This document shows positions 14,605 to 22,048 of a stretch of 64,000 bases of DNA, in pieces (within the stretch, counting starts at the first letter, position 1; each line of letters begins with the position of its first letter). Under the pieces are notes generated by a model, which was not told where the DNA came from, searched no databases, and saw nothing but the letters and a program-made list of their open reading frames with translations. The position numbers were made by a program, and so were the translations under genes. Origin of the DNA: an uncultured Lactobacillus sp. (lineage in GTDB: Bacteria; Bacillota; Bacilli; Lactobacillales; Lactobacillaceae); NCBI GenBank assembly GCA_946477855.1, contig CAMKZU010000006.1:1-64000 (forward strand). Direction: 5' to 3'.

Positions 14605-14967
14605 TTATAACCAAACTTTTTCGTAAATTTTTTCATTAAAGCCACAGGTCAGTTTTTTACCTTCAACAACCAGAGGCCTTTTTATTAGTTTTCCATTTTT
14701 GGACATCATGTCAGCGGCATCTGCAATTGACATATCTGCAATTTGATCTTTAAGGTGTAATTTGCGATAGTCTTGACCGTGAGTGTTGAAAAAATATTTT
14801 AAGCCACGATCTTCATGCTGGCTTAGCCATTTTACTAGATCTTCTTTTTTTGGCGGTTCTTCGACCAAATCTTGAAAATCGATCTCAACATTGTGCTCCG
14901 TCAGCCATTTTTGAGCAGCCCTTGAAGTAGAGCAACGCTTGTAACCATAGAATTTTATCATATTCAT
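14605..14967 (-). CDS. Spx/ArsC family (arsenate reductase-like) protein
   Basis: A 120-residue thioredoxin-fold protein of the ArsC/Spx/YffB family. The redox motif near the N-terminus is RCSTS (Cys near residue 12), that is C-x-x-S, rather than the C-x-x-C switch of classical Spx. The conserved R-P-L/I cis-proline region is present as LIKRPLVVEGKKL (about 95-107). It could be an RNA-polymerase-binding stress regulator or a small thiol reductase; the sequence does not decide. Start ATG 14967 follows AAGGAG; a second ATG two codons in is possible. Confidence 0.8.
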   Translation of the reverse strand: MNMIKFYGYKRCSTSRAAQKWLTEHNVEIDFQDLVEEPPKKEDLVKWLSQHEDRGLKYFFNTHGQDYRKLHLKDQIADMSIADAADMMSKNGKLIKRPLVVEGKKLTCGFNEKIYEKVWL

Positions 14968-15029: not shown

Positions 15030-16067
15030 CTAACTGAAATCCAGTTCAAAGTCTTTACTAGTAAAAAGATGAACTTTGTTATTAAAAAGGTAATTCATTG
15101 CGATGCCTAATGCAATTGGTAACACGAAGAAAAGAACAGCAATTAATATAATATTAACAAAATTCGCTGGGCGATTTGCCATGGCGGCAATAGGGCCAAT
15201 TAAACCTGAAAAGCCAAATCCTGCACTCATTGGTGTACCCTGAATTTGAAATACTGCACCTAAGGCACCCATTATACCGGCATTAATTAAAAGCGGGATA
15301 AGTAATTTGGGATTAGTCATTAGATTAGCCATTTGCATTTTAGGAGAACCTAAGAAGTGGGCAATTGATGTACCAAAACTATTTGATTTCCAACCGAAAA
15401 CAGCTAAAGAGAATGCAACGGCTGTGATACCTAAATTGGCAGAACCGGAAGCTATGCCAGAAATGCTTATCGCGGTGGCAATACCGACTGAAGAAATAGG
15501 GGAAACGATAAGTAACCCAAATACTATTCCCATCAGCATACCCATAATAATTGGTTGCAATGCCGTCAATTTTTCAACTCCGACACCGATCAAACTAGTT
15601 AATTGGCCAACAGGGATGCGGGTAAGACAGCCAATTCCTCCAGCTATTAGCAGAACAAGTAATGGAACTAATAGAATTGTGTATGCTTTCAATTTCTTAC
15701 CAAAAAACAAAACTAAGCCGTAAGCTATCATAATAGTGATGGCAGTATTAATAACGTCACCACTGCCCATAACCGCAACCTTGCCTTTGTTCATCACAAA
15801 GTTACCAGCTCCAGCTGTTGCCGCTAAGGCAATAGATGAAGTTTGGATGGGTGTTAATTTACCAGTCATACCAACACAGACGGCACTGATTGCTGGCAAC
15901 AATGCCGAAGCAAAGGTGGTCAAAGCTAAAATAAAGCTTAATTGCGGCATGCTTGGCAGCAATGCTTTTACCAGCTGATTAATTAAGGCTCCAGGAATTA
16001 AAGCTACAACTATACCTGTTGATAAGCCATTTAGTGTATCTAACGTAATCTTTTTTAAAGTATTCAT
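15030..16067 (-). CDS. PTS EIIC-like membrane permease (PTS_EIIC_2 type)
   Basis: A 345-residue protein with about nine or ten membrane segments, highly rich in G, A, I and L. It resembles the stand-alone PTS EIIC-like permease family (GMLMGIVFGLLIVSPISS, GWKSNSFGTSIAHFLGSP and GFGFSGLIGP blocks). No EIIA or EIIB partners are nearby, so PTS-type sugar uptake is doubtful. The start ATG follows GGGAGAG. The 5' leader carries an aromatic-rich leader peptide and a terminator, implying control by Phe/Tyr/Trp supply. This suggests, as inference, a transporter of an aromatic amino acid or related metabolite. Confidence 0.75.
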   Translation of the reverse strand: MNTLKKITLDTLNGLSTGIVVALIPGALINQLVKALLPSMPQLSFILALTTFASALLPAISAVCVGMTGKLTPIQTSSIALAATAGAGNFVMNKGKVAVMGSGDVINTAITIMIAYGLVLFFGKKLKAYTILLVPLLVLLIAGGIGCLTRIPVGQLTSLIGVGVEKLTALQPIIMGMLMGIVFGLLIVSPISSVGIATAISISGIASGSANLGITAVAFSLAVFGWKSNSFGTSIAHFLGSPKMQMANLMTNPKLLIPLLINAGIMGALGAVFQIQGTPMSAGFGFSGLIGPIAAMANRPANFVNIILIAVLFFVLPIALGIAMNYLFNNKVHLFTSKDFELDFS

Positions 16068-16080
16068 TTTACTCTCCCAA

Positions 16081-16116
16081 TAAAAAACTCACACAGATGA
16101 CGACAACTGTGTGAGT
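16081..16116 (-). terminator. Attenuator terminator before the EIIC-like permease
   Basis: On the minus strand ACTCACACAG (16116-16107) pairs perfectly with CTGTGTGAGT (16096-16087), followed by a run of T. It lies only 14 bases before the permease start codon, so it can act only as a conditional terminator. Confidence 0.85.
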
Positions 16117-16203
16117 CTTCAGAGAAGAAAGTACTTAAGTCTTTGAACACACAATTGTCATGAAGATTGAACTGTGTGTCTAAGACAATGACAAACTAGG
16201 CAC

Positions 16204-16275
16204 TCAGATCAAATAGCTGAAGTACCAGAAATAATATTTAACTTGCGGTTGATTAATTTTTTTAATTGCCGTCAT
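16204..16275 (-). CDS. Aromatic-rich leader peptide (23 residues)
   Basis: A 23-residue frame starting at ATG 16275, with GAGAGG eight bases upstream, ending in TGA. It begins MTAIKKINQPQ and ends VKYYFWYFSYLI: seven of eight consecutive codons (TAT TAT TTC TGG TAC TTC AGC TAT) specify Tyr, Phe or Trp. This is analogous in design to the E. coli pheL and trpL leader peptides, in which stalling at scarce aminoacyl-tRNA relieves termination. A near-consensus promoter lies 32 bases upstream and a conditional terminator downstream. Its sequence has no other evident function. Confidence 0.8.
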   Translation of the reverse strand: MTAIKKINQPQVKYYFWYFSYLI

Positions 16276-16306
16276 AATCTTTACCTCTCATAAATATTTA
16301 AGCAAT

Positions 16307-16335
16307 ATCATAACTTAATAGCATAAAAAAAGCAA
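16307..16335 (-). promoter_or_regulatory. Promoter of the leader-peptide / EIIC-like operon
   Basis: Minus-strand TTGCTT (16335-16330) and TATGAT (16312-16307) separated by exactly 17 bases; transcription would begin about 25 bases before the leader peptide ATG. Confidence 0.65.
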
Positions 16336-21733: not shown

Positions 21734-22048
21734 ATGTACGCAATTATTAAAACCGGTGGCAAGCAATATAAAGTTGCTGAAGGCGATAGTGTTTTTGTTG
21801 AAAAGCTTGATGCTGCAGAAGGCAAAGAAGTTACTTTTGATGAAGTAGTTCTTACTTCCGATGGCAAAGATGTTAAAGTTGGTACACCGTTAGTTAAAGG
21901 TGCTAAAGTTGTTGCTAAAGTTGAAAAGCAAGGTAAGGAAAAGAAAGTAGTTACTTTCAAGTACAAACCTAAGAAGCACTCACATTCAAAATATGGTCAC
22001 CGTCAACCTTATACTAAGGTTACAGTTGAAAAAATTGAATTAAACTAG
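21734..22048 (+). CDS. rplU: 50S ribosomal protein L21
   Basis: 104 residues starting [14 protein letters not shown], the hallmark N-terminus of L21, and the basic [20 protein letters not shown] segment that contacts 23S rRNA. ATG after GGAGGG. First gene of the short rplU-rpmA operon. Confidence 0.98.

Follow-up and report, generated by a model that had tools for sequence, protein, structure and literature searches.

A probable ribosome-stalling attenuator with aromatic control codons ahead of a PF13303 permease in Lactobacillus and other Lactobacillaceae

How a bee-gut Lactobacillus might control a membrane permease through a short reading frame crowded with aromatic codons is the question raised by one locus of the window, the whole stretch of 64,000 nucleotides that was analysed. 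In Firmicutes, control by aromatic amino acids is generally attributed to T-boxes or TRAP. A preliminary description of this DNA had instead placed an aromatic leader-peptide attenuator before the permease, and read from the sequence, all elements it named lie on the minus strand. The promoter (16335–16307) consists of a −35-like TTGCTT (16335–16330), 17 nt, and a −10 TATGAT (16312–16307). The −35 matches 3 of 6 consensus positions and the promoter is absent from the consensus-scan listing; TATGAT is retained in 12 of 15 Lactobacillus alignment rows. The Shine-Dalgarno sequence GAGAGG (16289–16284) is retained in 13 of the 15. Both the promoter and the ribosome-binding site of the preliminary description are present. 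The leader frame (16275–16204) starts with ATG at 16275, comprises 23 codons (MTAIKKINQPQVKYYFWYFSYLI) and ends with TGA at 16206–16204. Its codons 14–21 (16236–16213) read Y Y F W Y F S Y, confirming the claim of seven aromatic codons in eight.

The remainder of the leader, on the same strand, is made of segments with alternative partners. Segment A (GGTACTTCAG, 16226–16217) lies within the control codons and pairs with segment B (TTGATCTGAGTGCC, 16212–16199), which covers the leader stop codon and can pair with either A or D. Segment D (GACACACAGTTCAA, 16180–16167) is in turn a partner of B or E, and segment E (ATGACAATTGTGTG, 16161–16148) is the 3′ arm of the middle hairpin with D, or one strand of an antiterminator with F. 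The intrinsic terminator (16115–16082) is composed of F (16115–16097), G (16096–16088) and a T-tract (16087–16082). Its hairpin spans 16115–16088, and the end of the T-tract is 14 nt from the permease ATG at 16067, exactly as had been reported. The control-codon hairpin pairs GGUACU.CAG with CUGAGUGCC; this hairpin, the middle hairpin and the terminator had been correctly described. None of 200 dinucleotide shuffles folds as stably as the 241-nt leader (z −4.09). Alignments also show a spacer, TTAAGTACTTTCTTCTC (16138–16122), between the middle hairpin and the terminator. Strong conservation of this spacer extends to most of 18 Lactobacillus leaders, and no clear partner for pairing is seen. 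It is missing from the more distant Lactobacillus leaders in the alignment, and is possibly a pause site or an anti-Shine-Dalgarno sequence. Pairing of its AAGTAC with the control codons was considered by eye and dropped, the more distant leaders having no spacer.

Do these helices persist when the sequence changes? A total of 57 leaders, related to one another rather than independent, was compiled; leaders found later stand outside the structural counts. A hairpin with a T-rich tail occurs 66–169 nt past the leader stop in all 57. Complementarity was tested against 100 dinucleotide shuffles of the spacer, and at p≤0.05 it was found for E:F in 50, D:E in 41 and B:D in 33 of the 57. Covariation was followed in the 18 Lactobacillus leaders (alignment A2) and in 28 leaders (alignment A3, which omits 29 of the 57: 6 near-duplicates and 23 unsafe to align), with 500 shuffle controls that take no account of relatedness. 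The terminator F:G is 100% paired in A2 with 7 of 9 pairs double-changed (0/500 shuffles), and 90.8% paired in A3 with 22 double cells (0/500). The antiterminator E:F, in which E competes for the 5′ arm and loop of the terminator (CACACAGTTGTCGTC), is 94.9% paired in A2 with 6 of 13 pairs double-changed (1/500) and a covariation score reached in 0/500, and 96.9% paired in A3 with 18 double cells (0/500). Sequence comparison thus argues strongly for the terminator and antiterminator as a pair. The middle hairpin D:E is 98.0% paired in A3, where 11 double cells (0/500) fall in 2 pairs (100/500); in A2 it is 89.2% paired and its covariation is not significant. For the control-codon hairpin A:B, 95.1% of cells are paired, and two double cells (3/500) in one pair (118/500) weakly favour the putative helix. 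The anti-antiterminator B:D is 88.9% and 88.2% paired in the alignable groups A2 and A3 with no significant covariation. It recurs with different sequence in other groups, for instance as GUAUCUAA with UUAGAUAC in genus g27, and its support comes from this recurrence. The compensatory changes that were to be looked for in relatives are therefore found in the terminator and antiterminator, while B:D is conserved without covarying. The helix that excludes the terminator is E:F, and the alternative helix TTGTCAT:ATGACAA proposed earlier was rejected: it is 80.6% paired, contains no pair changed on both sides and does not outperform shuffles. In genus g31, six leaders (L140–L143, L147, L158) carry an extra hairpin after the leader stop (GGTGCAAACACG...TTTGCACC or similar) and have a longer stop-to-terminator distance of 144–161 nt; g38 leaders (L190–L192) have a similar GGTGCAAACACG element. 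This extra-hairpin form is a second sub-architecture.

We propose, with a probability of roughly 0.8, that the leader is a ribosome-stalling transcription attenuator with the topology of the his operon, and that it permits read-through when the charged tRNA for Tyr, Phe or Trp runs short. The ribosome would translate the leader close behind the RNA polymerase. When one of these charged tRNAs is scarce, it would stall in YYFWYF and mask A, leaving B free to pair with D; E would then be released to form the E:F antiterminator, and the permease would be transcribed. When the aromatic tRNAs are charged, the ribosome would reach the stop codon inside B and cover B, upon which D:E and F:G would form and transcription terminate. 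If the leader is not translated, A:B would form and transcription would again terminate.

The geometry of the leaders agrees with this scheme. The leader stop codon lies within the switching segment B, an overlap that is partly by construction, as B was searched for from −21 to +18 around the stop. With the leading edge of the ribosome set 14 nt beyond the A-site, a stall at any of two or more aromatic codons would spare B in 37 of the 38 leaders whose B:D complementarity reaches p≤0.1. Since B is free at the aromatic stall sites, a stalled ribosome is expected to favour B:D and E:F, and hence read-through; it is from this geometry that we infer both the coupling of the switch to the ribosome and the direction of the response, namely read-through on starvation. 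Folds cut before the 3′ arm of the terminator were used to compare the sequestration of F with a stalled ribosome and with one at the stop codon, at a threshold of 0.2. With a stall at the second aromatic codon, F is more sequestered than at the stop in 17 of the 57 leaders, less in none, and without difference in 40. Averaging the first four stall sites gives 17 for and 1 against, and taking the best of the four, a choice that favours the stalled state, gives 19 for and 0 against. The pairing of E is less decided (10 for, 5 against, 42 neutral). Leader L157, although rich in aromatic codons, shows hardly any F sequestration. In equilibrium folds E:F is preferred in many leaders even when the ribosome sits at the stop codon, and a kinetic argument is therefore needed; as proof of switching, equilibrium folding was set aside as only partly informative.

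Within Lactobacillus the leader accompanies the permease closely. A permease homologue at E≤0.001 occurs in 41 of 75 genomes, and the leader is present in all 22 genomes whose permease orthologue is at least 75% identical. A covariance model, R1, was built from 18 leaders, so that 18 of these 22 genomes match it by construction and 4 had no part in it. Every one of the 22 has one sense copy, directly upstream of the permease, a count valid for this leader type only, because the strict filters of the R1 run passed over leaders of a different appearance in G001, G011, G012 and G062. The remaining R1 matches are antisense copies at the same site, as expected for palindromic hairpins, and two matches of 30–31 bits in G037 and G033, which look like plain terminators and were rejected as leaders. 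All 18 leaders have Y, Y and F at peptide positions 14, 17 and 18 (numbered from 0), and the codons at 17 and 18 vary synonymously; Y stands at position 13 in 17 leaders and F at position 15 in 16. The N-terminal half drifts. The Trp position holds W in 10, R in 7 and G in 1, and with Arg or Gly there in 8 of 18, Trp is dispensable as a control codon. Retention of the aromatic run and of the leader in all close-orthologue genomes answers the earlier call for conservation in relatives, and the arrangement of aromatic leader and permease is not due to chance. Conserved codons with synonymous variation, a stop in the switching segment, compensatory changes and co-occurrence with the permease together support the attenuator that the preliminary description had proposed. 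In some Lactobacillus genomes (loci L157, L229, L230, L234) the leader looks different, with ..FFSFYYW, and lies well upstream of the permease; that of L157 stands ahead of the aminotransferase, and its antiterminator was not recovered by folding.

The leader is also found beyond Lactobacillus. The permease was detected at E≤1e-80 in 68 of 397 Lactobacillaceae genomes, and the upstream region was inspected in all 68 (0.4–1.5 kb for direct leaders, otherwise as far as 7 kb or the end of the contig). A leader was defined as a short ORF with a Shine-Dalgarno sequence and an aromatic run, before the permease or before a gene block entering it; the loose ORF filter also returns unrelated aromatic ORFs, and leaders were chosen by position and run. 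By this definition 51 of the 68 genomes have an aromatic leader before the permease or its operon, and in the other 17 none was found in the same inspected stretch. By genus, the counts are g1 5/8, g3 2/2, g5 4/4, g9 5/5, g10 0/2, g12 5/6, g13 2/2, g14 4/4, g20 1/1, g21 2/2, g22 0/2, g23 3/9, g27 7/7, g31 11/11, g33 0/2 and g40 0/1. Identity with named contigs shows that g9 is Bombilactobacillus and that g14 includes a Lentilactobacillus. An aminotransferase search, with matches in 157 of 295 Lactobacillales genomes, revealed an aromatic leader in 12 of 30 inspected loci, adding g17, g38 and another g14 genome; among these 12, G571 (L193) is a weaker case with a GTG start, and G622 (L204) comes from another family. 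Leaders thus occur in 14 Lactobacillaceae genera (g1, g3, g5, g9, g12, g13, g14, g17, g20, g21, g23, g27, g31 and g38). Among order-level permease homologues, 2 of 24 loci (L162, L181) have an aromatic leader within the 1.5 kb upstream of each. Ten PF13303 homologues from other Lactobacillales (L164, L167–L169, L171, L172, L174–L176, L183), about 47–52% identical, are preceded by a long gene ending LGLPIHI or similar, which resembles that of a dihydrolipoyl dehydrogenase. In the 1.5 kb upstream of these homologues no aromatic leader was found, and they are perhaps a paralogous branch. A degenerate codon pattern run over the 397 Lactobacillaceae genomes matched 259 and was useless alone, as a reversed-pattern control gave, by eye, similar counts per genome; it nonetheless exposed L074 and the leaders that head operons.

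Where the leader heads an operon, the order is often aminotransferase, D-2-hydroxyacid dehydrogenase, permease, or else aminotransferase followed by permease. Protein families were checked for eight proteins from five loci only. The best NCBIfam model for the five aminotransferases is NF005588/PRK07309, at 459–569 bits against a cut-off of 576, and for the three dehydrogenases PRK08605, at 275–307 bits against a cut-off of 356. PRK07309 was, we assume, once labelled aromatic aminotransferase. The best PDB relative of the aminotransferase is 4my5, a "putative amino acid aminotransferase", followed by 1dju, an "aromatic aminotransferase". The closest PDB chain to the dehydrogenase is the D-lactate dehydrogenase 4xkj, which leaves an assignment to the D-hydroxyisocaproate enzyme of L. 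casei unsupported.

The aromatic run could alternatively act in the manner of TnaC, as an arrest peptide whose nascent chain stalls the ribosome in response to a free aromatic amino acid or keto acid, so that excess induces the operon. We hold this to be unlikely. The TnaC-like class is defined by critical residues at a fixed distance from the stop, whereas here the last aromatic residue of the peptide lies anywhere from 1 to 13 codons before the stop, and R, G, Y or L can take the place of Trp. In addition, the geometry is such that arrest at the stop would leave the ribosome over B and so promote termination. Nevertheless, an operon of aminotransferase, hydroxyacid dehydrogenase and permease looks catabolic, and in bee Firm5 lactobacilli that have ArAT, Trp from the diet is turned into indole derivatives (PMC9018956). 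The TnaC leader of E. coli is likewise a peptide tied to aromatic metabolism and senses free Trp by nascent-chain arrest (PMC8429421); the geometry here argues for the sensing of starvation instead.

A hydrophobic, conserved peptide might also be a small functional protein in its own right, with hairpins that merely end the upstream transcript. Its N-terminal half, however, is unconserved, the leader has its own promoter and Shine-Dalgarno sequence and repeatedly precedes the same genes, and the antiterminator, which a plain terminator does not need, covaries; we consider this reading very improbable. Equally little credence can be given to an RNA that binds a ligand or tRNA directly, as a riboswitch or T-box, with the ORF incidental. 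T-boxes are certainly abundant in lactobacilli, with 13–40 matches per genome in 10 of 10 genomes tested, and part of the family has the conserved spacer. Against it, the features that different groups have in common are the codons and the paired segments, and Rfam has no match at the leader. At the gathering score the window yields only tRNA, an L21 leader and a PyrR site, and 20 leader-bearing loci yield two tRNAs, a few further such loci likewise being without a leader match; the T-box covariance model RF00230 matches neither the leader of the window nor the 20 loci. As T-boxes are numerous in all the genomes tested for them, the leader stands as an exception among bacteria that rely on T-boxes, and would perform the same task by means of an ORF.

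What the ribosome-stalling attenuator would sense and serve can be approached from the peptides and the gene content. Of the 57 peptides, 40 contain Phe, Tyr and Trp together; of the other 17, 16 lack Trp and 1 lacks Tyr. Over the whole peptide, Phe is present in 57, Tyr in 56 and Trp in 41. The earlier suggestion that all three amino acids are sensed would fit these 40, but Trp is not essential, being replaced in 8 of the 18 Lactobacillus leaders. The host assembly is 1.34 Mb and 67% complete, and the permease is 99–100% identical in Lactobacillus laiwuensis, L. kimbladii, L. kullabergensis, L. huangpiensis and strain W8174. The 21 Lactobacillus leader genomes tested, two of them incomplete (67%, 87%), have no chorismate synthase apart from fragments in G001, and genomes without it can probably make no aromatic amino acids. 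Across all genomes tested it is present in 24 of 59, and auxotrophy is therefore not a condition. Here the permease alone would be under starvation control, which fits import; most likely it takes up aromatic amino acids or their 2-keto/2-hydroxy acids. Its AlphaFold2 model is mostly helical (mean pLDDT 84.2). By sequence family the gene (15030–16067, minus strand; 345 aa, a membrane protein) is assigned to PF13303, PTS_EIIC_2, at 1.2e-89, while a PDB sequence search gave nothing relevant and none of the four neighbours scanned has a PTS-family match, one of them being without any match. The next gene downstream (14605–14967, minus strand), of the Spx/ArsC family and followed by pepX, may be co-transcribed with it.

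The operon form with aminotransferase and dehydrogenase fits either salvage or catabolism. A tentative and rather doubtful extension is that Lactobacillaceae possess a widespread aromatic-starvation salvage regulon under a single family of leader-peptide RNAs, in which the PF13303 permease, then misnamed a sugar PTS protein, would import aryl-pyruvates or aryl-lactates (or aromatic amino acids), from which the D-2-hydroxyacid dehydrogenase and aminotransferase would regenerate Phe, Tyr and Trp. Were this so, the phenyllactate/indolelactate "waste" pathway would run, at least partly, towards amino acids. Against the starvation response proposed for the attenuator, such an operon is usually read as catabolic, and fits induction by excess better than induction by starvation.

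The six-segment topology, with three off-state hairpins and two on-state alternative helices, is that of the his attenuator of enteric bacteria (E. coli). In pheL and trpL of the same bacteria, runs of Phe or Trp codons precede a terminator, whereas the present run is a mixture of Tyr, Phe and Trp and the leader matches no Rfam family. With the his operon attenuator it shares a leader peptide with control codons, a principle set out in PMC9413887, but the codons are aromatic instead of His, the regulated gene is a permease or an aminotransferase operon, and the hosts are Firmicutes. Ribosome-type His leader peptides do replace T-boxes in bacilli and other Firmicutes; those leaders have histidine codons and his genes, and Lactobacillales use T-boxes for histidine (PMC2965389, PMC9413887). 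Similarly, a Leu/Ile-rich leader peptide with a terminator attenuates ilv-leu in Staphylococcus aureus, with genetic support, and is predicted in Lactococcus, but concerns branched-chain amino acids and biosynthesis rather than a permease (PMC5794164). The accessible text of the T-box survey PMC2494555 makes no mention of a leader of the present kind, and in the open-licence PMC literature, a scope to which subscription papers and supplements do not belong, no aromatic leader peptide in lactobacilli was found. Leader-peptide attenuation is a known mechanism; a wide aromatic regulon of this type in the T-box-rich Lactobacillaceae is apparently undescribed. An attenuator in 14 genera, beside T-boxes where these were tested, would show ribosome-stalling aromatic control in lactobacilli of food, probiotics and the bee gut. 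A permease family that is so far uncharacterised would gain a testable function, and a tie to the kind of operon expected to make phenyllactate and indolelactate, compounds that matter for food preservation and host signalling.

Other cis-regulatory RNAs were encountered along the way. The window contains a PyrR binding site (RF00515, 4672–4773, plus strand, 57.6 bits) and a ribosomal protein L21 leader (RF00559, 21646–21720, plus strand) directly before the ORF at 21734–22048. Near the permease locus of one Bombilactobacillus genome (L065, genus g9), a fluoride riboswitch (RF01734) lies at 2882–2954.
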